A DNA stretch of 40,512 nt, taken from assembly GCF_900499005.1 (NCBI RefSeq), contig NZ_LS991316.1:378204-418715 (forward strand). The letters run 5' to 3'. Positions 2,615-24,179 of the stretch are shown piece by piece. Source of the DNA: Actinomyces culturomici. GTDB lineage: Bacteria > Actinomycetota > Actinomycetes > Actinomycetales > Actinomycetaceae. How positions within the stretch are numbered: the first letter of the stretch is position 1; each line of letters starts with the position of its first letter. A program made the translations under genes and the position numbers. The notes beneath the pieces were generated by a model. It saw only the letters and a list, made by a program, of their open reading frames with translations, did not search any database and was not told the origin of the DNA.

Positions 2615-3211
2615 GTGCGCATCGCGGAATCCGCCGACGTGGACGCTCGGGCGACGATCGGGGAGGGGAGCTCGATCTGGCACCTCGCGCAGATCCGGGA
2701 GGACGCCGTCCTCGGCGAGAACTGCATCGTCGGTCGCGGCGCGTACATCGGCTCGGGCGTGAGGATGGGCGACGGCTGCAAGGTGCAGAACTACGCCCTC
2801 GTCTACGAGCCGGCGGTTCTCGGGAACGGCGTCTTCATCGGCCCCGCCGTCGTCCTCACGAATGATCACTTCCCGCGCGCGGTCAACCCCGACGGCTCTC
2901 CGAAGTCGGCGCACGACTGGGAGCCCGTCGGCGTGACGATCCGCGACGGCGCCGCGATCGGCGCGCGGTCGGTGTGCGTCGCGCCTGTGACGATCGGGGA
3001 GTGGGCGACGGTCGCCGCGGGGGCGGTCGTCACGAAGGACGTTCCCGCCTTCGCCCTCGTGGCCGGGGTTCCGGCGAAGCGGATCGGCTGGGTCGGCGAG
3101 GCCGGCGTCAAGCTCTCCGCCACGGATGATCCCGCCGTCTTCGAGTGCCCGGCGACGGGCGCGCGCTATCGTCAGATCGACAACGACACTCTCGTGAAGG
3201 AAGCAGAATGA
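2615..3211 (+). CDS. Left-handed beta-helix acyltransferase (WbpD/WlbB-like N-acetyltransferase)
   Basis: This 198-residue protein is built of hexapeptide repeats (for example ATIGEG, AVLGENCIVGRG, VTIGEWATVAAGAVV), the fold of trimeric acetyl-CoA acyltransferases. It carries the FIGPAVVLTNDHFPRA segment typical of WbpD/WlbB enzymes, which N-acetylate the 3-amino group of UDP-2-acetamido-3-amino-2,3-dideoxy sugars. The last ~40 residues are a small non-helical tail. The GTG start has a strong GGAGGG site six bases upstream. The gene overlaps the next by ATGA, and that gene encodes the matching aminotransferase. The context strongly supports the WbpD role; the general family assignment is firmer than the exact substrate. 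Confidence 0.85.
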   Translation: MRIAESADVDARATIGEGSSIWHLAQIREDAVLGENCIVGRGAYIGSGVRMGDGCKVQNYALVYEPAVLGNGVFIGPAVVLTNDHFPRAVNPDGSPKSAHDWEPVGVTIRDGAAIGARSVCVAPVTIGEWATVAAGAVVTKDVPAFALVAGVPAKRIGWVGEAGVKLSATDDPAVFECPATGARYRQIDNDTLVKEAE

Positions 3212-4311
3212 CTCGCGACATGATCCCCGCTGCGAAGCCCATCATCGGCGAGGAGGAGATCGAGGCCGTCTCGGCCGTCCTCCGGTCCGGAATGGTCGCG
3301 CAGGGCCCGCAGGTGAAGGCCTTCGAAGAGGAATTCGCCGCGCGGCTCGTGCCGGGGACCGAGGCCGTCGCCGTCAACTCGGGCACCTCGGCCCTCCACC
3401 TCGGTCTGCTCGCCGCCGGAATCGGCGCGGGCGATGAGGTGGTCGTCCCGTCCTTCACCTTCGCGGCGACCGCGAACTCCGTCGCCCTTACCGGCGCGAC
3501 CCCCGTGTTCGCCGATATCGAGGACGACTCCTTCTGCCTCTCCCCGGAGTCGATCGAGGCCTCGATCACCGAGCGGACGAAGGCGATCATGCCCGTCCAC
3601 CTCTACGGCCATCCGGCGAACATGACGGCGATTCGCGCAATCGCCGAACGCCACGGCCTCATGGTCTTCGAGGACGCGGCGCAGGCCCACGGCGCCTCCC
3701 TCGACGGCACGCCGGTCGGCGCCTTCGGGACCTTCGGCGCCTTCAGTCTCTACCCGACGAAGAACATGACCTCGGGCGAGGGCGGCATGGTGACCACCGC
3801 GGATCCCGAGGTCGCGCGCCGCGTGCGTCTCCTGCGCAATCAGGGAATGGAGAAGCGCTACGCGAACGAGCTCGTCGGCCTCAACAACCGCATGACCGAC
3901 GTCCACGCGGCGATCGGGCGCGTCCAGCTCGGCAAGGTCGGCGCCTGGACCGCGAAGCGCCAGGAGAACGCGGCCTTCCTCGACGCCCACCTCGAGGGCG
4001 TCGTCGTCCCGCCGGTCGCGCCCGGCGCCGTCCACGTCTACCACCAGTACACGATCCGCGTCGTCGACGTCGACCGCGACCGCTTCATCGAGGCGCTGCG
4101 CGACGAGTGGCAGGTCGGTTCGGGCGTCTACTACCCGATCCCCAACCACCGACTCCCGTCGCTCGCCCCGTACGCCCCCGGCCTCGAGCTTCCCGCGACG
4201 GAGAAGGCGGCCCGAGAGGTCGTCTCCCTTCCGGTCCATCCCTCGCTCTCGGGCGCCGACCTCGAGCGTGTCGTCGAGGCCGTCAACGCGTGCGCGAAGG
4301 CGGGCGCCTGA
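3208..4311 (+). CDS. DegT/DnrJ/EryC1 PLP aminotransferase (WbpE-like, 3-amino sugar forming)
   Basis: This 367-residue PLP-dependent sugar aminotransferase shows the full family pattern: NSGTSALHL near residue 57, PSFTFAATAN at 81-90, FEDAAQAHGA at 154-163, and the PLP-binding lysine K185 in LYPTKNMTSGEGG. Enzymes of this type transfer an amino group from glutamate to a 3-keto UDP-GlcNAc or UDP-GlcNAcA. The ATG overlaps the acyltransferase stop (ATGA) and has a GAAGGAAG site, so it is preferred over an earlier in-frame start that would lie inside the acyltransferase gene. The gene ends in a TGATG overlap with the dehydrogenase that would make its 3-keto substrate. Confidence 0.9.
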   Translation: MTRDMIPAAKPIIGEEEIEAVSAVLRSGMVAQGPQVKAFEEEFAARLVPGTEAVAVNSGTSALHLGLLAAGIGAGDEVVVPSFTFAATANSVALTGATPVFADIEDDSFCLSPESIEASITERTKAIMPVHLYGHPANMTAIRAIAERHGLMVFEDAAQAHGASLDGTPVGAFGTFGAFSLYPTKNMTSGEGGMVTTADPEVARRVRLLRNQGMEKRYANELVGLNNRMTDVHAAIGRVQLGKVGAWTAKRQENAAFLDAHLEGVVVPPVAPGAVHVYHQYTIRVVDVDRDRFIEALRDEWQVGSGVYYPIPNHRLPSLAPYAPGLELPATEKAAREVVSLPVHPSLSGADLERVVEAVNACAKAGA

Positions 4312-5300
4312 TGACGAACATCCGCGTCGGCGTCCTCGGCATCGGATCGATGGGGCGTCACCACGTTCGCAACGTCCGCGCGACCGAGGGCGTCGACCTC
4401 GTCGCCGTCGCCGATCCCTCCGGTGATCGCTTCGGCGTCGCCGGAGATCTCGAGGTCCTCCCCGACGTCGAGGCGCTCATCGCCGCCGGCATCGACGCGG
4501 CGGTCGTGGCCGTTCCCACCGCGTTCCACGAGGACGCGGCGCTGAAGCTCGCCGAGGCGGGTGTCCACGCCCTCGTCGAGAAGCCGCTCTCCGTGTCCGT
4601 CGAGTCGGGGGAGCGGATCGCGAGAGCCTTCTCCGACGCCGGACTCGTCGGAGCCGTCGGCTACGTCGAGCGCTGCAATCCGGCTCTCCTCGAGATGCGC
4701 AAGCGGATCCAGGACGGCCAGCTCGGGCAGGTCTACCAGATCTCAACGCGCCGCCAGTCGCCCTTCCCCGCGCGGATCGCCGACGTCGGCGTCGTCAAGG
4801 ACCTCGCGACCCACGACGTCGACCTCGCCGCCTGGGTAGCGGGTTCCACCTACGAGGAGGTCTTCGCCCAGACGGCGTACCGCTCGGGTCGCGAGCACGA
4901 GGATCTCCTCGTCGCCTCGGGCCGATTCGCGAACGGCGTCCTCGTCAGCCACCTCGTCAACTGGCTCACTCCGTACAAGGATCGGACGACGATCGTCACC
5001 GGTGAGCGCGGAGCGCTCGTCGCCGACACCGCGATGGGCGACCTCACCTTCTACGAGAACGGCTCGATGCCCGTCCAGTGGGATCAGATCGCGAACTTCC
5101 GGGGCGTCTCGGAGGGAACGGTGACGCGCTACGCGCTCCGCAAGCGCGAGCCGCTCGCCGTCGAGCACGAGCACTTCCGCGACGCGATCCTCGGGGTGTC
5201 GGCCGAGCACGTGTCCATGGAGGAGGGCCTCGCGACCCTGCGCGTCACGGATGCGATCCTCGAATCGGCCGCGACCGGCCAGTCGGTGCGCTTCGACTGA
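4311..5300 (+). CDS. Gfo/Idh/MocA-family sugar 3-dehydrogenase (WbpB/WlbA/GnnA-like)
   Basis: This 329-residue NAD-dependent oxidoreductase has an N-terminal Rossmann fold (GVLGIGSMGRHH, then VADPSG), the family motif VEKPLSVS near residue 88, and a substrate segment GYVERCNPALLEM followed by KDLATHDVDLAAW. These features fit the dehydrogenases that oxidise C3 of UDP-GlcNAc or UDP-GlcNAcA for a partner aminotransferase. The start is the ATG sharing one base with the upstream stop (TGATG). A longer reading from 4107 would overlap the aminotransferase by 200 bases and is unlikely. It is the last gene of the operon and is followed at once by a strong hairpin. Confidence 0.87.
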   Translation: MTNIRVGVLGIGSMGRHHVRNVRATEGVDLVAVADPSGDRFGVAGDLEVLPDVEALIAAGIDAAVVAVPTAFHEDAALKLAEAGVHALVEKPLSVSVESGERIARAFSDAGLVGAVGYVERCNPALLEMRKRIQDGQLGQVYQISTRRQSPFPARIADVGVVKDLATHDVDLAAWVAGSTYEEVFAQTAYRSGREHEDLLVASGRFANGVLVSHLVNWLTPYKDRTTIVTGERGALVADTAMGDLTFYENGSMPVQWDQIANFRGVSEGTVTRYALRKREPLAVEHEHFRDAILGVSAEHVSMEEGLATLRVTDAILESAATGQSVRFD

Positions 5301-5305
5301 GCGCT

Positions 5306-5356
5306 TGAGAAACGGGGGCGGGCGAAGGATCATCCTTCGCCCGCCCCCGTCTCTCA
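5306..5356. terminator. Bidirectional terminator between convergent genes
   Basis: A perfect 19-bp inverted repeat (5312-5330 with 5332-5350) extends to 5306-5356 with one mismatch. It separates the dehydrogenase operon from the convergent asparagine-synthase-like gene, whose stop codon overlaps the right arm. There is no long U tract. Confidence 0.75.
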
Positions 5357-6967
5357 GTTCGCGCGCGTGTCCTCGTCCTCGGGAACGATGAGGGCGTTCG
5401 AGCCCCAGGAATTGGCGAGGAAGAGCCTCGCCCAGAGCCCGGTCGAACTCGCGCCCATCGCGAAGGCGCGCGCCTGCTCGAAGCGGTTCAGGGGGGCGGC
5501 GAACGCTTCGAACGCCATCGGGTGGTCGAGCATCGTCCGGATCGAGCGGGCCTTCGACAGCGCGCGATCGGCGCGCGTCGCCCGCATGAGGCCGAGGGCC
5601 GCGGCCTTGAGCCCCGCGGGCAATCCGTGGTCGTTCGACGTCGAGTAGAGGGACGGGCCCTCATCGCGCGCGCCCGTCGCAGTCGAGTAGACGTCGGAGA
5701 CGTACGCCGCGTACCACTGCCGGTTCTTCGTCAGCGCGAGATCCCCCGACAGCCAGACCCTCCACAGCTGCGCATCGAGCATCGGCGCGGCCCACGTGAA
5801 TCCGAAGGACTCGTAGGCGCGCATCGAATGATTGATGTACTTCGCCTGCCGCTCGCGGAGGTTGAACCATTCGAGCCACGACATCGATGCGGCCGGGGAG
5901 CCGTCGTATTCGACCTCCCGCGCCGCGCGCTCGACGGCTCCGACGACCAGCGGATCGGTGTCGATCGAGCGGGGGCGTCCTTGGAGGACCCCGTGGTGGT
6001 CGGCGATGAGGCGGCCGAGGGCCGCTGCCGGCATCCCCGCGAGGACCTCTTCCTCGTCGTGCGAATTCCCGACGATCGTGTGCCCGGGGAGGAAGACCGC
6101 GTCGTCCCCGACGAGGCCGTCGGACCTCAGATGATGGAGTGCGAACCAGTCCTGTACGTGGGGCAGGGACACCCCGCACCAGTTCGACCTGCGGAATGCC
6201 TCTCCCTCGGGGCCCGTCCACAGCCGCCGCATCTCGTCGACGACGCACTCGATCCCGATCCACGGCACGCCGAGCGATTCGGCGACGCTGCGGGAGATCG
6301 CGGTCTCCCGCGATCCCGCCTTCCCGTAGGTGAAGGCCGTCAGACGGTCGGCGCCGAGGGCCCTCAGGCGCGCGAGGAGCAATCGGGAGTCCAATCCGCC
6401 CGACAGGGGGACGACGAGGGGCCGGGAGCCGCTCGCCTCGAGGAGCCGCGCGAGCGCTCCGTCCAGGGCCCGCGTGAACTCCTCGGCGAACTCCTCCGGC
6501 GACTCGATGAGGTCGTCATTCCGCCGGTATCGCGCGAAGAGCGTCGACGAGGACGTCCCGTCGTCGTGGAGCGCGACGACGGACGCCGCCTCGCACGCCC
6601 GCACTCCGTCGATGAGCGTGCCATCGCCGAGGGCGTAGCCGAAATGCGCGAAGACCGCCGCCTGGGAGGCGTCGAGCCGCCAGTCCGGAAGACGGCCGCG
6701 CATCGCCTCGACGTCGTCGGCGACGATCCATCGCGATCCGACGCGCGCGTAGAGCAGTCCGAGCGACCGCATTCGGTCGGTCGCGACGATCACTCGGTCC
6801 GCTCGCTCTTCGACGAGGACCCATTGCCCCGGAATCGAGGCGAGATCCTCGAAGCCGGAGTCGAGGACCGTGCGCGCGAAGTCCGGGAGAGGAGCCCAGG
6901 CCCAGCGGCGCGCCCTCTCGTCCGCCAGCCATCCGGGTCGTTCGAGGAGGAGCTCTACGCGATCCAC
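5354..6967 (-). CDS. Asparagine-synthase-like amidotransferase without glutaminase cysteine
   Basis: This 537-residue protein resembles class B asparagine synthetases. A degenerate N-terminal Ntn-hydrolase-like domain (about 1-140) precedes an ATP-pyrophosphatase synthase domain with the PP-loop SGGLDS at 189-194. The N-terminus reads MDRVELL, with no cysteine at position 2, so glutamine hydrolysis is not expected. An in-frame TAA 12 bases upstream of the GTG excludes a longer start. An AAGGA site precedes the GTG. Such proteins occur in O-antigen and capsule loci (for example WbpS in Pseudomonas aeruginosa), where uronic acids become uronamides, but some are adenylating enzymes of other pathways. 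Here amidation of the diacetamido uronic acid made by the neighbouring operon is a reasonable inference. Ammonia or another nitrogen donor would be needed. Confidence 0.8.
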   Translation of the reverse strand: MDRVELLLERPGWLADERARRWAWAPLPDFARTVLDSGFEDLASIPGQWVLVEERADRVIVATDRMRSLGLLYARVGSRWIVADDVEAMRGRLPDWRLDASQAAVFAHFGYALGDGTLIDGVRACEAASVVALHDDGTSSSTLFARYRRNDDLIESPEEFAEEFTRALDGALARLLEASGSRPLVVPLSGGLDSRLLLARLRALGADRLTAFTYGKAGSRETAISRSVAESLGVPWIGIECVVDEMRRLWTGPEGEAFRRSNWCGVSLPHVQDWFALHHLRSDGLVGDDAVFLPGHTIVGNSHDEEEVLAGMPAAALGRLIADHHGVLQGRPRSIDTDPLVVGAVERAAREVEYDGSPAASMSWLEWFNLRERQAKYINHSMRAYESFGFTWAAPMLDAQLWRVWLSGDLALTKNRQWYAAYVSDVYSTATGARDEGPSLYSTSNDHGLPAGLKAAALGLMRATRADRALSKARSIRTMLDHPMAFEAFAAPLNRFEQARAFAMGASSTGLWARLFLANSWGSNALIVPEDEDTRAN

Positions 6968-7111
6968 ATGCGATCCTTACATCTCGACGTCGGGGCCTTC
7001 GCGGATTCTAGCCCTCGAGAGCGCATGCTTGAATAGTGGGGTGCCAGTGACGAGGTCGGGGCCCGGATCCTGACTCGTCGTGCGGAAGAGCATCAGTGAG
7101 AAGGTTGTCGA

Positions 7112-8404
7112 GTGGCTGACAAGGCGTGGGGACGTGGCCGCTGGCGCAGCGTGCTCTCGACGAGTCCGCTCCTGAGGGGCGTTCTCACGCTGATGTCGGG
7201 CACTCTGCTCGCCCAGGTCATCACCTTCGTGCTGCAGATCTTCATCGCGCGCGTCTACACCGACGTCGACAAGGGCCTGCTCGGCATCTACGGCTCGATC
7301 ACCTCGCTCGTCATCACGGTGGCCGCACTGCGCTACGACCTCGCGGTCATGCTTCCCGACGACGACCGGGCCGCTCGCGTCGTTCATCGGCTCGCGACGC
7401 GGTCGATCGTCGTCGTCTCGCTCTTGACCTCGCTCGCTCTGATCCTCGCGTCGCACTGGCTGACCGTTCACTACCATCACTCGCCGGAACTGTCGCGCTG
7501 GCTCATGGGGTCCGGCGTCACGGTCTTCCTCATCGCCGAGGCGACGAACCTCCGCTACTGGCTCACTCGGAAGGGGCGATTCGGGGATATCGCGAGGAAC
7601 GGCGTCGTCAACGCCCTCGCGATCGCCGGGCTCCAGCTCGCGCTCGGCGTCGTCTTCCACGGCGGGCTCACGGCGCTCCTGTGCGGCACGATCCTCGGTC
7701 AGCTCGTCTCCCTCGTCTTCCTCGCCGTTCGCGCCGGCGATGCGCGGACTCGTGAGGCGGGAGAGCCGACGATGCGCGCAGTCGCCGCGCGCTACAGGCG
7801 CATGCCGCTCCTCAACGGGCCGAACGCCCTCGTGGACGCGGTGCGCAACACGGGGATCAACCTCCTCATCGGGGCCGTCGCCGTCGCGGCTCTCGGTCAG
7901 TTCCAGCTCGCCTGGAACATCCTCCAGGTCCCGGTGGGCCTCATCGCCGGAAGCGTCGGTCAGGTCTTCCTCAAGAAGCTGTCCGACACTCCTCGAGGCG
8001 AGATGCGCCCGCTCGTCGTGCGGACACTCGTTCGCGCCGCCCTCGCGGTGGCGATCCCCTTCGCCGTGCTCTACGTCATCGCGCCGTGGCTGTTCCCCCT
8101 GGTGTTCGGCGCTCGATGGGATCAAGCCGGATACTTCGCCCGGGCTCTGACTCCGTGGCTGTACATGACGGTCCTCACCTCGCCGATCTCCAATCTCTTC
8201 GTGGTGACGGAGAACCAGCAGAAGATGCTCGTCTTCGCGATCTTCTACTGCGTCGTGCCGCTCGCCTGGCTGCGCTTCTCCCCCTACGCGCTGCTCCCCA
8301 CGATCACGATCCTCGGCCTCCTCATGGGAGCGATGCTCGGGGCGCTCGTCGTCCTCTCCGTCCTCACCGCCGCCCAGTACGACCGCGAAGGAGCGCGCGC
8401 ATGA
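7112..8404 (+). CDS. Wzx-type oligosaccharide flippase (MOP/MATE superfamily)
   Basis: This 430-residue polytopic protein has about 12 hydrophobic segments. The N-terminal pattern VLTLMSGTLLAQVITFVLQIFIARVY and the internal LLIGAVAVAALGQFQLAW region are typical of polysaccharide-biosynthesis flippases. It would move an undecaprenyl-diphosphate-linked oligosaccharide, or a decorated lipid carrier, across the membrane. The GTG start has a GAGAAGG site eight bases upstream. The gene overlaps the following glycosyltransferase as ATGA. It diverges from the asparagine-synthase-like gene across a 144-bp gap. No clear Wzy polymerase is adjacent. Confidence 0.85.
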   Translation: MADKAWGRGRWRSVLSTSPLLRGVLTLMSGTLLAQVITFVLQIFIARVYTDVDKGLLGIYGSITSLVITVAALRYDLAVMLPDDDRAARVVHRLATRSIVVVSLLTSLALILASHWLTVHYHHSPELSRWLMGSGVTVFLIAEATNLRYWLTRKGRFGDIARNGVVNALAIAGLQLALGVVFHGGLTALLCGTILGQLVSLVFLAVRAGDARTREAGEPTMRAVAARYRRMPLLNGPNALVDAVRNTGINLLIGAVAVAALGQFQLAWNILQVPVGLIAGSVGQVFLKKLSDTPRGEMRPLVVRTLVRAALAVAIPFAVLYVIAPWLFPLVFGARWDQAGYFARALTPWLYMTVLTSPISNLFVVTENQQKMLVFAIFYCVVPLAWLRFSPYALLPTITILGLLMGAMLGALVVLSVLTAAQYDREGARA

Positions 8405-9594
8405 GGGTCTGCTTCGTCCCCTCCTGGTATCCGAGGCCCTCCGCCCCGTTCAACGGAACCTTCTTCCGGGAGCAGGCTCGGATGCTCGCGGACGCCGGCC
8501 ACGACGTGAGCGTTCTGTCGGCGGAGCCGGTGCGGGCCGAATCGCGGGACTGGATCGTCCGACCGAGGCTCGCGATCGAGGACGGCCTTCGCGTCGTCCG
8601 AGTGGATCTCCCCACGCTCCCGAGGGGCGCGCGGCTCCTCGAGGAGCGCCTGCACCGCTCGCTCCTCGCGCGCGCCGCGCGACTCCTCGAGCACGAGGTC
8701 GGAACGCCGCACGTGGTTCACGGGCACACCGTGTTCCCCGGCGGGACGAGCGCCGCGTTTCTCGCCGAGCGGTGGGGCGCTCCTCTCGTCCTCACCGAGC
8801 ACCGGCCCTCGTCGATCTCCGCGCCCGCGTTCCTTTCGCGGCGCCGTCGGATCGATGCGGCGGTCGGCCGCGCCTCCCTGCTGACGACGGTCTCGTCGGG
8901 ATTCGCTTCCGCCCTCGACGCCCGCTACCCGCGCACGAGCTGGGTCGCGATCCCGCTCCCGGTGCCGGACCTCTTCTTCGAGGCGCGGCGCGTCGACCGC
9001 GAGCCGTCCGCGCCGATCCGCTTCCTTCACGTGTCGCACATCGACGATAACAAGAGAGTCGTCGAAACCTGCCGAGCATTCGCCGACGCGTTCCCCGAGG
9101 GCGGGGCCCGCTTGACGGTGATCGGGGGGACGCCCGAGTCCATCGAACGAGTGCGAGGCGGACTCGGGGGCGAGATCCCGGCTCATGTCGAGTTCGTCGG
9201 CCGTAAGCCGCGATCCGAGATCGCCGCGGCGATGGCGGCCTCCGACGTGTTCATCCTCGTGAGCGCCGTCGAGACGGGCGGGGCGGTCTTCTCCGAGGCG
9301 CAAGCGGCCGGCGTGCGGATTCTCGCGTCGGCGACGTGGGGGGGACGGTTCGCGGTGCGGGACGGCCTCGGCGAGCTCGTGCCGGTGGACGACCATGACG
9401 CGCTCGTCGACGCGATGCGGCGGCTCGCGAACGATGAGGGGTACCTCGCTCCCGCAGACATTCGCGCCCGGGCTCGCGAGCGCTACTCGGAGTCTTCCTT
9501 CACCGATCGCTGGACGGCTCTGTATCGTGAGGTGACGGATGAGGCCGATGATCCGTCGAGGCGCGCTCATCGCGAAAGGAGACGACCGGCGTGA
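8401..9594 (+). CDS. GT4-family (GT-B) glycosyltransferase
   Basis: This 397-residue retaining GT-B enzyme starts with MRVCFVPSWYPRP, followed by FNGTFFREQ. The acceptor domain contains VVHGHTVFPGG and the linker LTEHRPS. The C-terminal nucleotide-sugar half has LHVSHIDDNKRV and an EX7E motif in AVETGGAVFSEAQAAG. It likely adds one sugar to the lipid-linked repeat at the cytoplasmic face; donor and acceptor cannot be told. The start is the ATG overlapping the flippase stop. A longer in-frame reading from 8086 would lie inside the flippase gene. It is cotranscribed with the flippase and the next glycosyltransferase. Confidence 0.87.
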   Translation: MRVCFVPSWYPRPSAPFNGTFFREQARMLADAGHDVSVLSAEPVRAESRDWIVRPRLAIEDGLRVVRVDLPTLPRGARLLEERLHRSLLARAARLLEHEVGTPHVVHGHTVFPGGTSAAFLAERWGAPLVLTEHRPSSISAPAFLSRRRRIDAAVGRASLLTTVSSGFASALDARYPRTSWVAIPLPVPDLFFEARRVDREPSAPIRFLHVSHIDDNKRVVETCRAFADAFPEGGARLTVIGGTPESIERVRGGLGGEIPAHVEFVGRKPRSEIAAAMAASDVFILVSAVETGGAVFSEAQAAGVRILASATWGGRFAVRDGLGELVPVDDHDALVDAMRRLANDEGYLAPADIRARARERYSESSFTDRWTALYREVTDEADDPSRRAHRERRRPA

Positions 9595-10691
9595 AGCGAA
9601 TGGTCTTCCACGCGCCCAGCGTCGTCGCGGGCGGCGGCTCCGCGGGCTCCTCGATCCGACCGTATCGGATGCTCGAGGCGTTCAAGGAGGCGGGCTACGA
9701 GGTCATCGAGGTGACGGGCCGCTCCGAGGAGCGGCGGCTCAAGGCGCTCGACGCCCGACGAGCCCTCGCCGACGGGGACGTCGAGTTCTGCTACTCGGAG
9801 CTCTCGTCGAGCCCGATCGCCATGTCCGAGCCGCGATCCGCGCACGTCGACCCCGGAGTCGACTTCGACCTCTTCGCCGCATGCCGACGATCGGGAGTTC
9901 CCGTCGGCGCGTTCTATCGGGACATCTACTGGCGCTTCCCCGGTTTCCTCACGCTTCGGCAGCTGCCCTACAGGGCGATGCTGAAGCTCAACTATGTGAG
10001 GGATCTTCGACGTCTCGAGCGAACCGTTGACATTCTCTTCCTCCCGTCGATGCGGATGGGCGACTACGTGCCCATCGTCTCCCCGAGCAAATTCCGGGAG
10101 CTGCCGCCAGGCGCACCAGTGGAGCGCATCTCCGAGGGCGAGGGCGTCGAACTCTTCTACGTCGGGAGTCTCGGCGCGTTCTACGACATCACGGAGTGCC
10201 TCGCAGCGGTCGGCGATGCGCCGGGATGCGGACTCACGATGTGCGTTCCCCAGGACCAGTGGTCGCGGCTGCGGGGGGACTACGAGGATCTCCTCTCGGA
10301 TCGGGTGGCGGTCGTCCACGGTCGCGGTGCCGAGCTCGATCCCTATTTCGATCGCGCGACGATCGGGGTGCTCGCGATGCGCCCGATCGAATACCGATCG
10401 TTCGCCGCGCCGGTCAAGCTCTTCGAGTACATTGGGCGCGGGCTTCCGATTCTCGCGAGTGCCGACACGTTCGTCGGGGATTTCGTCGAACGGAACGGCA
10501 TCGGGTGGGCGCCCCGCTTCGATCGCGCGGAGATCGGCGCGGTGCTCGAGCGGCTCATCTCGAATCCCGACGAGGTCGAGCGGGCGGCGAGCAGAGTCCG
10601 GGAGATCCGGGGGGACAACACCTGGAGGGCGCGCGCCGCTCAAGCCGCATCGGCCCTGCAGGAGGCCGGCGGGAAGGGCCGCACGGCGTAG
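9591..10691 (+). CDS. Divergent GT-B glycosyltransferase
   Basis: This 366-residue protein has the general layout of GT4-like enzymes but weak motifs: an N-terminal GGGSAGSSIRPYRML, an unusual GAFYRDIYWRFPGF segment in the middle, VELFYVGSLGAFYD at the start of the second domain, and PVKLFEYIGRGLPI, which matches the donor-site K-x-x-E region. The GTG start overlaps the previous stop (GTGA) and has an AAAGGAGA site. It is the last gene of the flippase operon, 13 bp from a convergent gene with no clear hairpin between them. The substrate is unknown. Confidence 0.8.
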   Translation: MKRMVFHAPSVVAGGGSAGSSIRPYRMLEAFKEAGYEVIEVTGRSEERRLKALDARRALADGDVEFCYSELSSSPIAMSEPRSAHVDPGVDFDLFAACRRSGVPVGAFYRDIYWRFPGFLTLRQLPYRAMLKLNYVRDLRRLERTVDILFLPSMRMGDYVPIVSPSKFRELPPGAPVERISEGEGVELFYVGSLGAFYDITECLAAVGDAPGCGLTMCVPQDQWSRLRGDYEDLLSDRVAVVHGRGAELDPYFDRATIGVLAMRPIEYRSFAAPVKLFEYIGRGLPILASADTFVGDFVERNGIGWAPRFDRAEIGAVLERLISNPDEVERAASRVREIRGDNTWRARAAQAASALQEAGGKGRTA

Positions 10692-10704
10692 CCGGACGGC
10701 GGCG

Positions 10705-11874
10705 TCACGCCCCGAGAAGCTCCTCGTAGTGGACTCGGAGCTCGGCCACCGCTGTGCGCGTGCTCCGGTTCGCGACGACCCATTCCCGGGACGCCGCCCC
10801 GCGCGCGCGGCGCTCCGAGGCTCCCATGCGGATGACCGCGCGCATCGCCGAGGCGAGGGAATCAACATCGTACTCCCGGGTGAGCAGATCCGAGCACGAG
10901 GGCGCCGACATCTCGGCGGCGCCGCCGACATCGTTGACGATCACGGGGAGCCCGCACGCCTGCGCCTCGAGCGAGACGAGTCCCGCCGCCTCCGCGCGTC
11001 CTCGAGTGGTCCGGGTCGGCAGAATCAGGGCGTCGGAGCGGCGCATCGCGTCCCGGACGCCCTCTCGGGGGAGCGGCCCCGCGTACGTGAGGGCGGGGTC
11101 CCCCGCGGCGGCTCGTTCGACGTCACGTCGCAGGGGGCCGTCGCCGACGATGACGAGGCGATGGCGATCGGAGACGGAAGCGTGCGCGCGAAGAAGGTCC
11201 GGCACGCCCTTGAGGTCGCTCAGGGCGCCGACGAAGAGGAGGGACGGGATCTCGCCCCTCTCGCCCGCCTCATCGTCCGCGCGCCACCATTCGGTGTCGA
11301 CGCCCTGATAGTGGACGTGGAGGGTACTCGGGTCGAATCCGGAGGCGACGGCGACGTCGGCGAGATACCGGGAGACGGCGAGCACTCTCGTCGATTCGCG
11401 CGCCGCTCGAAGATTGCGCTCGGTCCAGGCCGATCCGGCGCGTTCGATGAGGCGCTCGGGCGCCGGCAGCAGGGAGGAGGCGTAGGCGTCGCCGCCGTGC
11501 AGGGTGGTGAGGAGGGGGACTCGCATTCTCCGCGAGGCCCTCAAGGCCGGGAGCGACCACGTCGCCTGGTGCTGGTGGATCAGGTCGGCGCCCGAATGGG
11601 CGATGAGGCTCGAGTAGTGGCCGATGAACCCCCACTTCATCGCCTCTCTCATCCGCATCGGCAGGACGCCGGCGCCGGGCACGGCCTCGTCGATGGGAAG
11701 GGAGATACGCGGATCGTCGACGGCGGCCGCGAGAGCGAGGAGTCGCCAGTCCACATCCGGCATCTCGAGGGCGTGCTGCACCGCGAAGTAGGTCGGCGGG
11801 ATGCGGAGAGTGCCCTTCGTCAGCGCGATTCTGGGACGTGCTCCCGGTGCGTCCGACGAATCGGAAACGCTCAT
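10705..11874 (-). CDS. GT4-family (GT-B) glycosyltransferase
   Basis: This 389-residue enzyme shows GT4 hallmarks: ADLIHQHQATW and LLTTLHGGDAY in the acceptor domain, LLFVGALSDLKGVPDLL at the start of the donor domain, VIVGDGPLR, and the EX7E motif in EAAGLVSLEAQACGLPVI. The start is the ATG overlapping the 2-epimerase stop (ATGA); an in-frame extension to 12222 would run inside that gene. It is the last gene of a three-gene leftward operon (GT4, 2-epimerase, GT4). This arrangement suggests transfer of the epimerase product or of a neighbouring residue, which is inference. Confidence 0.87.
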   Translation of the reverse strand: MSVSDSSDAPGARPRIALTKGTLRIPPTYFAVQHALEMPDVDWRLLALAAAVDDPRISLPIDEAVPGAGVLPMRMREAMKWGFIGHYSSLIAHSGADLIHQHQATWSLPALRASRRMRVPLLTTLHGGDAYASSLLPAPERLIERAGSAWTERNLRAARESTRVLAVSRYLADVAVASGFDPSTLHVHYQGVDTEWWRADDEAGERGEIPSLLFVGALSDLKGVPDLLRAHASVSDRHRLVIVGDGPLRRDVERAAAGDPALTYAGPLPREGVRDAMRRSDALILPTRTTRGRAEAAGLVSLEAQACGLPVIVNDVGGAAEMSAPSCSDLLTREYDVDSLASAMRAVIRMGASERRARGAASREWVVANRSTRTAVAELRVHYEELLGA

Positions 11875-12947
11875 CGGGGCTCCGCGCTCGCGAGGAGGAC
11901 TCGCGCCACGGCTTCGGCGGCGCGCCCGTCGCCGTACGGCGTCGCGTCGGTGTCCGCGGGCCTGGGCCGTTGCGCCGCGGCGACGAGGTCGGGGCCGGGC
12001 TCCACGAGGACGTTCCACCCCAGACGCACGGTCTCCACCCATTCGGTCTCCGGACGGACCGTCGTCGCGGGGACGCGAAGGAGGAAGGCCTCCTTCTGAA
12101 GGCCGCCGGAGTCGGTGATGATTCCGCGCGCGTGCAGCGCGCTCGAAATGAGATCGGGATAGGGGAGGGGCGCGTGACCGATGAGGTTGCCGCGGTCGAG
12201 CGCGATCCCGAAGGATTCGCATTTCGCGACGAGCCGGGGATGGGCGAGAAGGACGACGGGATGGTCGATCGCCCCGAGGGAGTCGAGGAGCCGCTCGAGG
12301 CGCTCGGGATCGTCCGTGTTGTCGGGCCGATGGATCGTCGCGAGCGAGTACGAGGACGGGGCGAGCCCGAGGGAGTCCATGACCGGGGAGGTCGGACGAT
12401 CGCGGACGGCATCGCGGACTCTCAGGAGCACATCGGTCATGACGTCTCCGACGACGACGGTGCGTTCGGCCAGGCCCTCGTTCGCGAGGTGCTGGGCGGC
12501 GACGTCGGTCGGGGCGAGCAGGAGGTCGGACGCGTGATCGGTGAGGACGCGGTTGATCTCCTCGGGCATCCGGCGATTGAAGGAGCGGAGACCCGCCTCG
12601 AGGTGGGCGACGGGGATGTGGAGCTTCACCGCGCCGAGCGCCGCCGCGATCGTCGAATTCGTGTCGCCGTAGACAAGGACCCAGTCGGGCGCGAATTCAC
12701 CGAACACGTTGTCGAGCGCTGAGAGCATCGCGCCCGTCTGTCGTCCGTGGGTTCCCGATCCGACGCCGAGATGGACATCGGGAGCGGAGATCCCGAGGTC
12801 GGTGAAGAAGACGTCGGAGAGCAGCGGGTCGTAGTGCTGCCCGGTGTGGACGATGATGTGCTCGATGCCCGACGCGGCGAACGCGTGGTCGATGGGGGCG
12901 AGCTTGACGAACTGGGGCCTCGCCCCGACGACGGACATGACGCGCAT
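11871..12947 (-). CDS. wecB: UDP-GlcNAc 2-epimerase family enzyme (non-hydrolysing; WecB/WbpI-like)
   Basis: This 358-residue protein has the family pattern: SVVGARPQFVKLAP at the N-terminus, HTGQHYD, VYGDTNST, HLEAGLRSFNRRMPEEINR, and in the second half TDSGGLQKEA and RPETEW. Such enzymes interconvert gluco and manno UDP-2-acetamido sugars. With the dehydrogenase, aminotransferase and acyltransferase elsewhere in the window, the substrate may be UDP-GlcNAc3NAcA (WbpI activity) rather than UDP-GlcNAc (WecB activity). The sequence alone does not separate these. The ATG shares one base with the upstream stop (TGATG) and has an AAAGG site. The long in-frame upstream reading lies over the neighbouring gene and was not used. 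Confidence 0.87.
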   Translation of the reverse strand: MRVMSVVGARPQFVKLAPIDHAFAASGIEHIIVHTGQHYDPLLSDVFFTDLGISAPDVHLGVGSGTHGRQTGAMLSALDNVFGEFAPDWVLVYGDTNSTIAAALGAVKLHIPVAHLEAGLRSFNRRMPEEINRVLTDHASDLLLAPTDVAAQHLANEGLAERTVVVGDVMTDVLLRVRDAVRDRPTSPVMDSLGLAPSSYSLATIHRPDNTDDPERLERLLDSLGAIDHPVVLLAHPRLVAKCESFGIALDRGNLIGHAPLPYPDLISSALHARGIITDSGGLQKEAFLLRVPATTVRPETEWVETVRLGWNVLVEPGPDLVAAAQRPRPADTDATPYGDGRAAEAVARVLLASAEPR

Positions 12948-14107
12948 CAGTAGACCTTTCGGCGACGGGGGGAGGGGGAGTCGAGTGCGGTCGCGTAGGC
13001 CGCGACGAGGCGATCCGCCTGCTCGTCCCACGTGGGGATCCTCGGCGGTCGGGTTCGGAACCGACGGACGTCCTCGGGGGTGATCCGTTCGATCGCACGA
13101 TCGAGTTCGACGGCGGGGTCCTCGATGATCCACGTGTCGGCGTCCTCGCCGAGGAGACGACGGGCCTCGACGAGGTCGGTGCTCAGCGGCGGGGTTCCGG
13201 CCTTGAGGGACTCCATGAGCTTGTTCGGCGTCGACAGGCGCATGGAGAGGCAGGCGGGCTCGATGAGGCAGAGCGAGACGTCCGCGCCGCGGACGTGGGC
13301 GACCACGTCCTCGGGAGGAACCGGATCGAGGCGATGGATGTTCCGGTGGGATCGGGCGGCCGCGTCGACCGCCGCGCGGAGCGCCCCGTTGCCGAGGAAG
13401 ACGAGATGCGCGTTCGGGTGCCGGGCGAAGACCTCGAGGAGAAGGGGGATCGATCGTCCCTCCGAGAGGAAGCCGACGTGGATGTAGACGAGGGCGTCCT
13501 CGGGAATCGAGAGGCGCGAGCGCAGGTCGACGCGGCCGCCGTTGTCGGCCGGCGAATTCGTGACGACGACCGGGCGGATCCCGGGGTACGCGTCCCGGTA
13601 CCACTGGGCGATCGGCTCGTTGACGACGGAGACGACGTCCGTCTTGCGGATGTAGTGACGCTCGATGACCCTTTGGATGCGCTGTCGCAGGCCGCGCGAG
13701 GCGATCGTCTCGGTCTCCAACTCGTGCGCGTTGTACGCGAAGATCGCGCCGGTCCGCCTCGCGAGCGCGTGCGCGAGCGGGAGGACGAAGAGATTCTGAG
13801 CGGCGACCGCGCCGAGATCCGCGGACCGGTACGCCGAGAACACCCGCAGCTGCCAGGCGACGAGGATCCGGAGGGCGCCGAGGCGCTGGGACATGTGGGC
13901 GCCCCGGATGCGGCGGATCTCCGCTCCGTCGCCGATGACCTGGCGCGTCGGCAGGTCGGTCGAGTCGACGCCGACCACGTGCGTCGCCGTGAACCGCCCC
14001 GAATCCTGAAGGCTGCGGGCGATCTTGGAGACGCGCCCGGGACCCGCCAGGGGAGAGGGGTAGATGAGGAGGTTGAGACCGCTTCGGGACCGATCCGTCG
14101 AGACCAT
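12947..14107 (-). CDS. GT4-like (GT-B) glycosyltransferase
   Basis: This 386-residue GT-B protein begins with LNLLIYPSPLAGPGRVSK. It has FAYNAHELETETIASRG in the first domain, YIHVGFLSEGRSIPLLLEVF at the domain junction, VFLGNGALR, and PNKLMESLKAGTPPL in the donor site in place of a classic EX7E. HELETE after an Asn-Ala pair is common in GT4 enzymes of surface-glycan loci. The ATG has a GAGAAGGGGG site. It is the first gene of the operon containing the 2-epimerase. Confidence 0.84.
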   Translation of the reverse strand: MVSTDRSRSGLNLLIYPSPLAGPGRVSKIARSLQDSGRFTATHVVGVDSTDLPTRQVIGDGAEIRRIRGAHMSQRLGALRILVAWQLRVFSAYRSADLGAVAAQNLFVLPLAHALARRTGAIFAYNAHELETETIASRGLRQRIQRVIERHYIRKTDVVSVVNEPIAQWYRDAYPGIRPVVVTNSPADNGGRVDLRSRLSIPEDALVYIHVGFLSEGRSIPLLLEVFARHPNAHLVFLGNGALRAAVDAAARSHRNIHRLDPVPPEDVVAHVRGADVSLCLIEPACLSMRLSTPNKLMESLKAGTPPLSTDLVEARRLLGEDADTWIIEDPAVELDRAIERITPEDVRRFRTRPPRIPTWDEQADRLVAAYATALDSPSPRRRKVY

Positions 14108-14171
14108 CGCGCACCCCCTTCTCGCGCCGCGCCGGCGATACCACTGCGGACCGCGGTGGGGCCGCTCCGCG

Positions 14172-14177
14172 ATGATA
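14172..14177 (-). promoter_or_regulatory. Probable -10 box of the GT4-epimerase-GT4 operon
   Basis: TATCAT on the minus strand lies 65 bases before the ATG at 14107 in a divergent gap. The -35 region is weak. Confidence 0.35.
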
Positions 14178-14210
14178 TCAGCGAGCGGCGGCGCGCCCTC
14201 GGGTTGCGAC

Positions 14211-14216
14211 TACCCT
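14211..14216 (+). promoter_or_regulatory. Probable -10 box of the 14251 glycosyltransferase gene
   Basis: TACCCT lies 34 bases before the ATG at 14251. A GGAGGGAG ribosome-binding site sits between them. Confidence 0.35.
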
Positions 14217-14250
14217 GGGCAGGGCAGAACGTCGCGGAGGGAGACCGATC

Positions 14251-15450
14251 ATGGCCGGTTCGGCAGGCACGATGCGGGTATTGGTCGTCTCGCGCATTCA
14301 CATGCCCGAGGCGTCGGCCGCCTCATTCCGCCTGCAGGCGGTCGAGCGCGCGCTCGCGGCGGCGGGCGCCCGGGTGCGGGTTCTCACGACGACCGCGCCC
14401 GGGGCGGAGGCCCCCGACGACGGGGACGCGGTCGTCTCGCGCTGGCCCGCGCTGCGGGACGCCTCCGGCTACCTGCGCGGCTACCTCCCCTACATGAGCT
14501 TCGACCTCCCGGTCTTCTTCCGCATCCTCGCGTCCTCGAGGCCGCGGATCGCGCTCGTCGAGCCGCCGCCGACGACGGGCGTCGTCGCGAGGTGTGCCTT
14601 CGCCCTCCGCCGCATCCCCTACGTGTGGTACGCCCCCGACATCTGGTCGGACGCGACCGACGCGACGGAGGCTCCGGCCCTCGTCAAGCGCGCGGTCCGC
14701 GCGATGGAGTCCTTCGCCATGCGGGGGGCGCGCGCTGTCATCGCGATCAACGAGGACGTGGCCGAGCGGGCGTCCGCCCTCGGCGCCCGGCGGGTCGCCA
14801 TCGTTCCCAATGGCATCGACACCCGGTCGTTCCGCTTCGAAGGGGACGGTCCGGACGACCGGGTCCGCGAGGAGGCCGGGCTCGGGGACGCCTACTTCGT
14901 CTACGCGGGCACGGCCTCCGAATGGCAGGGCGCCGAGGTCTTCGTCGACGCCCTCGCCGCGGTCCGCGCCGTTCGCCCCGACGCGCAGGTCGTCTTCCTC
15001 GGGCAGGGGGCGGCGTGGCCGGAGCTGCGCAGGCTGGCCTCCCGAATCCCGGACGGACCGACGGGCCGCCCACCGGTGGTCTTCCTGCCGTCGCTGCCTC
15101 CGGAGGAGGCGGCCGCGTGGCAGCGCGGAGCGGTGGCGGCGCTCGTCTCGATCAAGCCCGGAATCGGCTACGACTTCGCCTATCCGACGAAGGTGCTCGC
15201 CGCCCTGGCGTGCGGGACGCCCGTCCTCTACTCCGGCGCGGGCCCCGCGATCGACGACATTCGCGCCGATCGACTCGGCTGGGCCGTGCGCCACGAGTCC
15301 GGCGAGGTCGCGGACGCGATGCGCGAGGCGCTCGCCCTCGCGCGCGACGAGGACGAGCGGCGTCGTCTCCACGACTGGGTCGAGGCGAATCGATCGATCG
15401 AGCGGACCGGGCGCGACGCGGCCGCCGTCGTCCTCGAGTCGAGCCGCTGA
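14251..15450 (+). CDS. GT4-family (WbuB-like) glycosyltransferase
   Basis: This 399-residue enzyme starts LVVSRIHMPEASAASFRLQ. It contains YVWYAPDIWSD in the acceptor domain, IVPNGIDTRSF at the inter-domain linker, FVYAGTASEWQGAEVFV at the start of the donor domain, and YDFAYPTKVLAALACGTPVL in the donor site. The pattern resembles WbuB-type enzymes that add an amino sugar to lipid-linked intermediates. The ATG follows GGAGGGAG by seven bases. It reads alone, ending 112 bp before the dehydrogenase gene, and diverges from the epimerase operon. The sugar transferred is unknown. Confidence 0.86.
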   Translation: MAGSAGTMRVLVVSRIHMPEASAASFRLQAVERALAAAGARVRVLTTTAPGAEAPDDGDAVVSRWPALRDASGYLRGYLPYMSFDLPVFFRILASSRPRIALVEPPPTTGVVARCAFALRRIPYVWYAPDIWSDATDATEAPALVKRAVRAMESFAMRGARAVIAINEDVAERASALGARRVAIVPNGIDTRSFRFEGDGPDDRVREEAGLGDAYFVYAGTASEWQGAEVFVDALAAVRAVRPDAQVVFLGQGAAWPELRRLASRIPDGPTGRPPVVFLPSLPPEEAAAWQRGAVAALVSIKPGIGYDFAYPTKVLAALACGTPVLYSGAGPAIDDIRADRLGWAVRHESGEVADAMREALALARDEDERRRLHDWVEANRSIERTGRDAAAVVLESSR

Positions 15451-15524
15451 CCCTGTCACGAGCCGGCGCGCCGCGAAGGTCCGAGCCTGCCGTCGCCGAG
15501 TCGTGGCGATGCGGCGCCGCTGAC

Positions 15525-15530
15525 TAGACT
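15525..15530 (+). promoter_or_regulatory. Probable -10 box of the UDP-sugar dehydrogenase gene
   Basis: TAGACT lies 32 bases before the ATG at 15563. The same hexamer precedes the GH25 and rmlCD genes, which supports it as a local housekeeping -10 form. Confidence 0.4.
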
Positions 15531-15562
15531 CGGGGAGGAACGAGGACAACAAGGAGTCTCAC

Positions 15563-16858
15563 ATGCGCATCGCAGTCGTCGCACTCGGCAAGATCGGCCT
15601 GCCCCTGGCCGTCCAGTACGCCTCGAAGGGCCACGACGTCATCGGAGTCGACGTCAACGAGACGACCGTGCGCCTCGTCAACGAGGGCGAGGAGCCCTTC
15701 CCGGGCGAGGCCGAACTCGCCGAGCGCCTCGCCGAGCTCGTGCCCGCGGGTCGGCTTCGTGCGACGACCGACTACGCCGAGGCGATCCCGGGAGCGGATG
15801 CGATCGTCCTCGTCGTCCCCCTCTTCGTCGACGACGAGACCTGGGAGCCCGACTTCGGATGGATGGACGCGGCGACGCGGTCCCTCGCCGAGTATCTCGA
15901 GCCCGGGACCCTCGTCTCCTACGAGACGACCCTTCCCGTCGGCACGACGCGCAACCGGTGGAAGCCGCTCATCGAGGAGATCTCCGGGCTGAAGGAGGGC
16001 GAGGACTTCGACCTCGTCTTCTCGCCCGAGCGCGTCCTCACCGGCCGCGTCTTCGCCGACCTGCGCAAGTACCCGAAGCTCGTCGGCGGACTCACGGACC
16101 GCGGGACGAGGGCGGGCATCGCCTTCTACGAGTCCGTCCTCGACTTCGACGAGCGCCCCGACCTGCCGCGTCCGAACGGCGTGTGGGACATGGGATCCGC
16201 CGAGGCCGCCGAGATGGCGAAGCTCGCGGAGACGACCTACCGGGACGTCAACATCGGACTCGCCAACCAGTTCGCCGTCTACGCCGACAAGGCCGGCATC
16301 GACGTCGAGAAGGTCATCGACGCGTGCAACTCCCAGCCGTACTCGCACATCCACCGTCCGGGCATCGCTGTCGGCGGGCACTGCATCCCCGTCTACCCGC
16401 GCCTCTACCTCTCGACCGATCCCGACGCCTCGATCGTCCGCACCGCGCGCTCGTTCAACGCCACAATGCCCGAGTACGTGATCTCTCGGGCCGAGGAGAT
16501 CCTCGGCGACCTCGCCGGCCTCACGGTCGTCGTCCTCGGAGCGTCCTACCGGGGGCGGGTGAAGGAGACCGCCTTCTCCGGCGTCTTCCCGACGGTCGAC
16601 GGCCTGAGAGCCCGCGGCGCGAAGGTCCTCGTCCACGATCCGATGTACTCCGACGAGGAACTCGCCCGCTTCGGCTGGGCGGCCTACCACTTCGGCGAGC
16701 CCGCCGACCTCGCGATCCTCCAGGCCGACCACCCCGAGTACAAGGAGATCTCGCCGTCCGATATCCCCGGCATCCGCCTGCTGCTCGACGGGCGTCGCGC
16801 GACGGACGCCGCGAAGTGGGCGGGAGTGCCGCGCCTCGTCATCGGGGGAGGGGAATGA
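15563..16858 (+). CDS. UDP-sugar 6-dehydrogenase (WbpA/WecC-type nucleotide sugar dehydrogenase)
   Basis: This 431-residue NAD-dependent enzyme oxidises C6 of a UDP-sugar to the uronic acid in two steps. The N-terminal domain starts VVALGKIGLPLAVQYASKGHDVIGVDVN, with YETTLPVGTT and FSPERVLTGR following. The central domain has the EMAKLAETTYRDVNI helix, and the catalytic cysteine lies in GIAVGGHCIPVYP. The C-terminal domain begins VVVLGASYRGRVKE. The family includes UDP-GlcNAc, UDP-ManNAc and UDP-Glc dehydrogenases. The amino-sugar genes in this locus favour an N-acetylated substrate. An AAGGAG site precedes the ATG by six bases. The gene overlaps the following membrane-protein gene as ATGA. 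Confidence 0.88.
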   Translation: MRIAVVALGKIGLPLAVQYASKGHDVIGVDVNETTVRLVNEGEEPFPGEAELAERLAELVPAGRLRATTDYAEAIPGADAIVLVVPLFVDDETWEPDFGWMDAATRSLAEYLEPGTLVSYETTLPVGTTRNRWKPLIEEISGLKEGEDFDLVFSPERVLTGRVFADLRKYPKLVGGLTDRGTRAGIAFYESVLDFDERPDLPRPNGVWDMGSAEAAEMAKLAETTYRDVNIGLANQFAVYADKAGIDVEKVIDACNSQPYSHIHRPGIAVGGHCIPVYPRLYLSTDPDASIVRTARSFNATMPEYVISRAEEILGDLAGLTVVVLGASYRGRVKETAFSGVFPTVDGLRARGAKVLVHDPMYSDEELARFGWAAYHFGEPADLAILQADHPEYKEISPSDIPGIRLLLDGRRATDAAKWAGVPRLVIGGGE

Positions 16859-23236: not shown

Positions 23237-23238
23237 CT

Positions 23239-24108
23239 TCAGAGCTCCTCGACGATACGGGGCGAGTGGCGCTTGAAGAACCACGTGCCGAAGCCGAAGG
23301 CCGCGAAGGACCAGAAGACGCATGCCGCGGTGACGGGAAGGGAGGGGAGCGCGAAGTCGTAGAGGCACGACCTGTACGCCTCGAGGAAGGTCTCCGCCGG
23401 GTTGAGTCGGAAGATCGTCGTGAGAGGGATCGGTCCTCCGTTGAACGACCAGCCCTTCCGCAGGAGGACGTTCTCGACGTCGTGGAGCATCCCGAGCGAG
23501 AAGACCACGCCGGAGGCGTACATCCAGATCTGGTTGAAGATCGACCACAGATGAGCGATGTCGCGGAAGTAGACGGTCGCGATCGAAAGGACGAGGGAGA
23601 CGCCGGTGGAGAAGAACGCGGTGAGGACCATGACGACGAGCAGCGCCGGGATCATCGCGAAGACTCCGGGACCTCCCATGAGGGCGGAGATGATGACGAG
23701 GACGATCAGCTCGAAGATGAAATCGACCGCCATCGCGAGGACCGTCGAGTAGATGAGCGCCTCGCGCGGGAAGTAGACCTTGGTGAGAAGACCGGCGTTG
23801 TCGATGAGGGAGGACATTCCCGAAAGGATCGCTCCGGAGAGGAACGACCAGCAGATGACGCCGATGCCGATCCACAGGGCGAAGGAGTCGATTCCGGAAT
23901 TGCGGCCCGGATCGACCGAACCGCGGAAGACGACGCCGAAGATCAGCGCGAAGACCGCGACGGTCGCGAGGGGATTGATGAACGACCAGAGGCGGCCGAG
24001 GGCCGTACCCTTGAACTCCGAGGAGACGGTGCGCTGCGTGAGCCTCAATGTGAGGTCGACGAGCCTGCGCCGCTCACTCGGGAAGCCGTTGTCGTCTGGA
24101 CTTGCCAA
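23239..24108 (-). CDS. wzm: Wzm, ABC-2 permease of the polysaccharide exporter
   Basis: This 289-residue protein has an amphipathic N-terminal helix (VSSEFKGTALGRLWSFINPL, typical of Wzm/TagG/RfbA permeases) and six membrane segments. It should form the homodimeric channel for a lipid-linked polysaccharide together with Wzt. The start is a TTG, with GAGAGGA about ten bases upstream; no in-frame ATG exists before the second membrane segment, and a nearer ATG is out of frame. It is separated from the acyltransferase gene by 121 bp that contain a possible internal promoter. Confidence 0.9.
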   Translation of the reverse strand: MASPDDNGFPSERRRLVDLTLRLTQRTVSSEFKGTALGRLWSFINPLATVAVFALIFGVVFRGSVDPGRNSGIDSFALWIGIGVICWSFLSGAILSGMSSLIDNAGLLTKVYFPREALIYSTVLAMAVDFIFELIVLVIISALMGGPGVFAMIPALLVVMVLTAFFSTGVSLVLSIATVYFRDIAHLWSIFNQIWMYASGVVFSLGMLHDVENVLLRKGWSFNGGPIPLTTIFRLNPAETFLEAYRSCLYDFALPSLPVTAACVFWSFAAFGFGTWFFKRHSPRIVEEL

Positions 24109-24173
24109 CTCGTGACATCCTCTCGCTGTTCTCGGCGAACCCAGGAGCGCGGTGGCGCCCGGTTCGCCCGTTT

Positions 24174-24179
24174 ACCCTA
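24174..24179 (-). promoter_or_regulatory. Possible -10 box of wzm-wzt
   Basis: TAGGGT on the minus strand lies 66 bases upstream of the wzm TTG start. It could drive wzm-wzt apart from the upstream genes, or the four genes may be one transcript. Confidence 0.3.

Follow-up and report, generated by a model that had tools for sequence, protein, structure and literature searches.

Five genes of one probable pathway

Five genes in a 40,512-nucleotide stretch of DNA from Actinomyces culturomici (contig NZ_LS991316.1, positions 378,204 to 418,715; the whole stretch is called the window) can with good confidence be read as one pathway from UDP-N-acetylglucosamine (UDP-GlcNAc) to UDP-2,3-diacetamido-2,3-dideoxy-D-mannuronic acid (UDP-ManNAc3NAcA), serving a wall glycan of the teichuronic acid kind. 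An earlier note on this DNA had proposed a UDP-2,3-diacetamido uronic acid, and one such sugar is very probably made by the five gene products, in view of the substrate residues of the epimerase, the co-occurrence of the genes and the solved relatives of the proteins. On sequence grounds, UDP-ManNAc3NAcA is the most likely product of the set. Genes were called from reading frames, the guanine and cytosine content by codon position and family matches:

2615 to 3211, plus strand: AcT, hexapeptide N-acetyltransferase of the WbpD/WlbB type (acetylation of a 3-amino group); matches to 3mqg and Hexapep
3208 to 4311, plus strand: AT, pyridoxal phosphate-dependent aminotransferase of the DegT/DnrJ/EryC1/StrS family, WbpE type, with K185; PF01041
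4311 to 5300, plus strand: DH3, UDP-sugar 3-dehydrogenase of the Gfo/Idh/MocA family; NF040723 (below cut-off) and GnnA 7bvj
11871 to 12947, minus strand: EPI, non-hydrolysing UDP-sugar 2-epimerase of the UDP-GlcNAc3NAcA type, with W303, Y93 and L16; Thermus thermophilus enzyme
15563 to 16858, plus strand: DH6, nucleotide-sugar 6-dehydrogenase, GHC motif with C274; TIGR03026

In the proposed route DH3 would oxidize C3, AT would place an amino group on C3 from an amino acid donor and AcT would acetylate this 3-amino group. DH6 would oxidize C6 to the acid and EPI would invert C2 from the gluco to the manno configuration, most likely as the final step. The glycosyltransferases around the set would assemble the repeat, a Wzx-like flippase would export it, and a LytR-CpsA-Psr (LCP) protein may fix the glycan to the wall.

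Reading frames and family matches confirmed the genes for all five claimed activities inside positions 2615-16858, with best family E-values per protein from 3e-23 (AcT) to 4e-124 (AT), which excludes chance. AcT, AT and DH3 form one close-packed group on the plus strand (2615-5300), in which the starts of AT and DH3 overlap the stop of the preceding gene. The gene of EPI was concealed inside a longer frame of 757 codons in the mechanical list of open reading frames. The strands and the spacing of the genes make the proposed three transcription units plausible, the trio (plus), EPI (minus) and DH6 (plus) lying apart. The genome (2.56 Mb, 19 contigs, estimated 100 % complete) contained, in a genome-wide family search, a single Epimerase_2 protein and a single UDPG_MGDP_dh protein, both encoded in the window. 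Thus there is no second pair for another uronic acid, and a separate route to ManNAcA would need these same two enzymes.

Substrate residues of the epimerase

The top solved relatives of EPI were five sequences of the T. thermophilus UDP-GlcNAc3NAcA 2-epimerase (370-372 bits), followed by 4neq (250 bits) and, lower down, Escherichia coli WecB (121 bits). The specificity of the Thermus enzyme was attributed to Trp307 in place of an Arg of UDP-GlcNAc enzymes, Tyr96 in place of His/Gln and Ala18 in place of Leu/Met (PMC10622841). Trp307 and Tyr96 are linked there to the 3-acetamido and C6 differences of the substrate, and the Arg of UDP-GlcNAc 2-epimerases is said to bind the C3 hydroxyl. In the alignment W303 of EPI corresponded to Trp307, Y93 to Tyr96 and L16 to Ala18, hence two of the three Thermus specificity residues are present. 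EPI carries the Trp-for-Arg and Tyr-for-His/Gln exchanges of the diacetamido pathway, and the C3 site is occupied by Trp303, not by the Arg of a WecB-type enzyme. The equivalents of Arg12, Lys17, Asp98, Glu120, Glu132, His208, Ser284, Glu290, Arg302 and Glu306 are kept.

From an epimerase search the best 80 of 589 loci were kept, and 38 of these were counted as actinobacterial (L003-L039, L067). All 38, among them five Streptomyces loci but not UtrH of S. griseus, encoded the combination Leu-Tyr-Trp. Leu16 is thus a trait of this clade. The Ala after the conserved Lys is known from one characterised enzyme and, since the Streptomyces homologues lack it, does not define the pathway. Among the remaining 42 loci (one from Coriobacteriia, L060) Trp was present in 41 and Leu in one (L076). 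Arg was found in each of 20 other 2-epimerases from members of the class, matches not of the EPI type that were hand-picked to span the scores.

Eleven of these 20 fetched sequences (L095-L098, L101, L102, L104-L107, L109) represented a second actinobacterial epimerase type with the combination Ala-Tyr-Arg: on the C6 side its residues are those of the diacetamido-uronate enzyme from Thermus, while at C3 it has Arg. A 6-dehydrogenase-like match was located within about 4 kb of ten of the eleven. Activity as a 2-epimerase of UDP-N-acetylglucosaminuronic acid would fit this type.

Transferases and dehydrogenases

Among solved structures AcT was nearest to 3mqg (129.5 bits; runner-up 77.1), an acetyltransferase of lipopolysaccharide biosynthesis which we take to be WlbB; against the Hexapep family AcT scored 80.8 bits. 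This closest relative places AcT with the WbpD/WlbB-type acetyltransferases. AT matched PF01041 with 414.8 bits; its best solved match reached 289 bits and the WbpE structures 218 bits. The lysine named before in AT is indeed at position 185, and we take it to be the catalytic one.

The best NCBIfam model of DH3 was NF040723, the archaeal UDP-GlcNAc 3-dehydrogenase (203 bits). In phmmer the top solved relative was GnnA 7bvj (87.3 bits), ahead of WlbA 3q2k (75.8 bits), and Foldseek also ranked GnnA first; identity to the WlbA structures was 21-25 %. K91 and H168 were invariant in an alignment with 32 relatives, and the predicted model had a mean pLDDT of 93.6. In the tree, 39 rows comprising the window and other actinobacteria formed one clade (support 100/100); WlbA 3q2k and a group of 11 rows from other loci lay outside it. 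The nearest rows outside this clade belonged to Chloroflexi and one euryarchaeote; two of them, L072 and L079, scored 299.8 and 342.6 on NF040723. The row of L012, a distant paralogue (32 %), fell outside the clade. At four loci (L043, L047, L077, L081) matches to 3-dehydrogenase and acetyltransferase lay within one open frame, which suggests gene fusions.

DH6 scored 303 bits on TIGR03026, above the cut-off. Models of UDP-ManNAc dehydrogenases gave 249.6 and 196.2 bits and TviB gave 105.8 bits, all below cut-off. The protein carries the GHC motif with C274, presumably a functional residue of the enzyme. In its tree a 42-row group united the window with actinobacteria, the Bacillota locus L056 and the Chloroflexota locus L072 (100/99 at the midpoint root). 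Outside this group stood 4r16 and Cap5O, both UDP-ManNAc dehydrogenases, together with 12 of 14 rows from non-actinobacterial loci, on long branches and in a tree without E. coli WecC. Both dehydrogenases adjoined rows of Schaalia canis. Owing to long branches and midpoint roots, placements beyond the actinobacterial clades are unsure in both trees; the trees were calculated without WbpA and WbpB of P. aeruginosa, and the comparisons did not include its WbpI. The labels WbpB-like for DH3 and WbpA/WecC-like for DH6 thus hold at the level of the family only; the trees set DH3 apart from WlbA, and DH6 tentatively apart from 4r16 and Cap5O.

Co-occurrence in genomes and loci

EPI, DH3, DH6 and AcT, not the aminotransferase, were counted in 148 genomes of the class, the genome of the window included. 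EPI-type proteins were present in 25 genomes, DH3 in 36, DH6-type proteins in 33 and AcT in 41 (E-value up to 1e-30). Each of the 25 EPI-type genomes also had DH3 and a DH6-type protein, DH3 was present in all 33 DH6-type genomes, and neither type occurred in the 112 genomes without DH3. Eight genomes had DH3 and a DH6-type protein without an EPI-type protein; 34 of the 41 AcT genomes had DH3. The cut-offs for the EPI and DH6 types were fixed after viewing the score gaps: for EPI, 384 was followed by 298.5 (a fragment of an EPI that is split in two in genome G115, counted as EPI-type) and then by 289; for DH6, 427 was followed by 207. The DH3 search was limited at 1e-60, a gap from 385 to 90 bits having been seen in another genome set. 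The association with DH3 was strong for the EPI type and the DH6 type (Fisher 4e-20 and 7e-30). These p-values are overstated because the genomes are related; by family label the association persisted (5e-8 and 4e-10): of 40 families, these being the labels among the matches listed, to which further genomes may add, 13 had EPI-type proteins, 15 had DH6-type proteins and 16 had DH3. The co-occurrence lends support to a DH3 that would act on a sugar of the UDP-GlcNAc type.

All five genes were near the epimerase in 21 of the 38 actinobacterial loci and the trio in 25, within the flanks examined, several of which end at contig ends. Named genomes searched as a whole (17 of the 38 loci) yielded a DH3 of at least 385 bits in 16 cases, the exception being a metagenome-assembled genome of Brachybacterium. 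At locus L115 (genome G131) the trio AcT-AT-DH3 (9536-12204) was located about 3 kb from two genes resembling, by eye, flagellar hook-associated proteins; the trio may feed the glycosylation of flagellin with a 3-acetamido sugar.

Alternative pathways and order of steps

Several observations weigh against one pathway to UDP-ManNAc3NAcA. The DH3 score on NF040723 is below the cut-off of 450, the Gfo/Idh/MocA family is functionally mixed, and VIA-align tied 1,5-anhydrofructose reductase (placed first), inositol dehydrogenase and levoglucosan dehydrogenase, GnnA not being separable from these. AT is generic, the WbpE structures not being its top matches. EPI passes the NCBIfam wecB model TIGR00236 (252.4 bits, cut-off 210.15); this model spans non-hydrolysing 2-epimerases at large and does not tell one substrate from the other. 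EPI has L16 as UDP-GlcNAc enzymes do and not the Ala18 of Thermus, hence its C6 pocket is not identical to the Thermus pocket. AcT occurred without DH3 in seven genomes. DH3 occurred without a DH6-type protein in three (G067, G068, G131), and the trio could therefore contribute to a different product; in G067 the missing types may reflect a contig end.

A rival reading is that of two pathways in the window, in which a WecB/WecC-like pair would provide UDP-ManNAcA and the trio a 3-acetamido sugar of its own, for instance UDP-GlcNAc3NAc. The split of the genes over separate units and the pass on the wecB model would agree with this, as would the higher scores of DH6 on the UDP-ManNAc dehydrogenase models than on TviB, all below cut-off as they are, and the two loci L115 (G131) and L116 (G068), where neither EPI nor DH6 was matched beside the trio within the 20.0 and 15.6 kb examined. 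Two pathways are nevertheless very improbable: EPI has Trp and not the Arg said to bind the C3 hydroxyl, EPI-type and DH6-type proteins never occurred without DH3 in the 148 genomes, and the genomes with a DH6-type but no EPI-type protein indicate that DH6 is not tied to ManNAc. On the epimerase residue and the co-occurrence, an independent ManNAcA pathway was rejected.

Within the single pathway the order of steps has to be considered. In the eight genomes without an EPI-type protein DH6 needs no manno substrate; together with the GlcNAc3NAcA residue in the glycan of S. griseus (PMC13274773), this favours epimerization as the last step. Nearly even chances, slightly on the lower side, are given to a route to the same sugar in which oxidation, amination and acetylation at C3 would come first, yielding UDP-GlcNAc3NAc, with C6 oxidation thereafter, unlike the order in P. 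aeruginosa. Such an order, C3 before C6, is that of the methanococci. Their glycans contain GlcNAc3NAcA, while the available part of PMC2952790 does not demonstrate the order of the enzymes. GnnA, titled UDP-N-acetylglucosamine 3-dehydrogenase, as the nearest solved relative of DH3 in phmmer and Foldseek leans weakly to C3 first; so do the archaeal UDP-GlcNAc 3-dehydrogenase as best model, the chloroflexal and euryarchaeal rows next to the clade with their higher scores on it and, again weakly, the trio without a DH6-type protein in G068 and G131, the third such genome, G067, stopping at a contig end. The precedent of P. aeruginosa points the opposite way (PMC10622841). It is unlikely that UDP-GlcNAc3NAcA itself is also used as precursor, the epimerase converting only part of the pool. 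The S. griseus glycan speaks for such a use, with ManNAc3NAcA repeats and GlcNAc3NAcA at the reducing end (PMC13274773), yet both uses are compatible with the pathway to UDP-ManNAc3NAcA. A tentative view, held at somewhat less than even probability, is that actinobacteria have their own version of this pathway: 3- and 6-dehydrogenases not close to WlbA or the compared UDP-ManNAc dehydrogenases would act at C3 of UDP-GlcNAc first and then at C6, the C6 pocket of EPI (Leu16, Tyr93) would differ from that of Thermus, and the first three genes would be a movable unit that also runs without the other two.

Relation to known systems

Older chemical reports describe the sugar for P. acnes and Geobacillus. 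The view that such a sugar would be unusual in a Gram-positive actinobacterium finds no support: ManNAc3NAcA was proven by nuclear magnetic resonance (NMR) in Cutibacterium acnes (PMC6598116) and S. griseus (PMC13274773), thus the surprise of the earlier note was unjustified. The matrix and wall polysaccharide of C. acnes has a five-sugar repeat of Gal, Glc, two ManNAc3NAcA and GalNAc (PMC6598116). For S. griseus, a teichuronic-acid-like polymer of ManNAc3NAcA and GalNAc was established by NMR and serves as receptor for antibacterial toxins; utrA, B, D, H and J, in two operons, were assigned to the ManNAc3NAcA pathway by structural modelling (PMC13274773). By these published gene functions the utr locus of this Gram-positive actinobacterium has the same five functions as the window. 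It differs in its neighbours; in the window EPI and DH6 stand in two further units, and an LCP gene and rhamnan genes lie beside the set. Five Streptomyces loci (L016, L025, L027, L031, L035) encoded homologues of all five window genes with 55-71 % identity. In a congener of C. acnes, C. porci, EPI (63 %), DH6 (76 %) and DH3 (59 %) have counterparts in a different gene arrangement, AcT and AT having been sought only in the flank of its epimerase.

The sets of P. aeruginosa (wbpA-B-E-D-I), Bordetella (wlb) and Thermus share the five activities, and AcT and EPI are closest to this kind. Unlike in these sets, DH3 stands apart from WlbA and Leu16 replaces the Thermus Ala18; for P. aeruginosa the comparison is one of functions. 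GnnA of Acidithiobacillus ferrooxidans, a UDP-GlcNAc 3-dehydrogenase, is the nearest solved relative of DH3 with only 24-26 % identity. To our knowledge its pathway has no uronic acid step.

The gene set is a further example, the sugar and like gene sets being already known from other actinobacteria. The 16S sequence of the genome was 95 % identical to that of Schaalia canis along its entire length; other full-length matches among 14 named genomes reached at most 90 %, and Schaalia georgiae yielded fragments only. The host is thus a member of the Actinomycetaceae close to Schaalia, and it joins those actinobacteria in which ManNAc3NAcA, an acidic sugar of the wall, is very probably made; among the papers listed in a shallow literature search none joined diacetamido with Schaalia or Actinomyces, which proves no absence. 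The Trp/Arg marker together with the co-occurrence suggests a genome test to tell makers of the manno sugar from bacteria possibly halting at the gluco form.

Neighbouring glycan genes

To the left of the trio, LCP, DUF2304 and GT2 genes occupy the minus strand. An NlpC/P60 protein, Wzm/Wzt-type ABC exporter genes, RgpF and rhamnose genes lie to the right of the set. The genes next to the five were:

52 to 1392, minus strand: LCP protein that may attach the glycan to the wall; PF03816, 138.7 bits
5354 to 6967, minus strand: asparagine-synthase-like (AsnB-like) protein; PF00733, partial, 33.6 bits
7112 to 8404, plus strand: putative Wzx-type flippase; Polysacc_synt, 19.1 bits, below cut-off 28.2
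8401 to 9594, plus strand: GT4-type glycosyltransferase
9591 to 10691, plus strand: probable glycosyltransferase; weak group 1 matches, below cut-off
10705 to 11874, minus strand: GT4-type glycosyltransferase on the strand of EPI
12947 to 14107, minus strand: glycosyltransferase on the strand of EPI
14251 to 15450, plus strand: glycosyltransferase upstream of DH6
16855 to 18435, plus strand: DUF2142 membrane protein, start overlapping the stop of DH6; PF09913, 116 bits

In the examined flanks of the 38 actinobacterial loci, Wzt was a neighbour in 11, Wzx and Wzm in three each, and LCP and RmlA in two each, both RmlA loci belonging to Schaalia. An RgpF match was found in none of these 38 epimerase loci within the same flanks. 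With RgpF in 0 and RmlA in 2 of the 38 loci, the rhamnan was rejected as a conserved partner of the pathway; attachment of the sugar to the neighbouring rhamnan is conceivable but finds no support in these counts.

The AsnB-like protein had only the partial synthase match and no match to a glutaminase domain. Among the 38 loci one match to it was obtained (Arcanobacterium, L008, 37 %). It could amidate a uronic acid or have another role; acetamidino formation in the manner of WbpG was rejected, since no such model was among its two NCBIfam matches.

RgpF, an acyltransferase and Wzm/Wzt (22001-27210, minus strand) constitute a separate cluster for an ABC-exported rhamnan that adjoins the Wzx-type cluster, so that two glycan export systems, Wzx-type and ABC-type, are adjacent in the window. 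At 33754-35196 (minus strand) RmlC and RmlD domains are fused in a single protein. A glycoside hydrolase of family 3 at 36401-39295 (minus strand) is permuted, its C-terminal and Fn3-like domains preceding the N-terminal domain.

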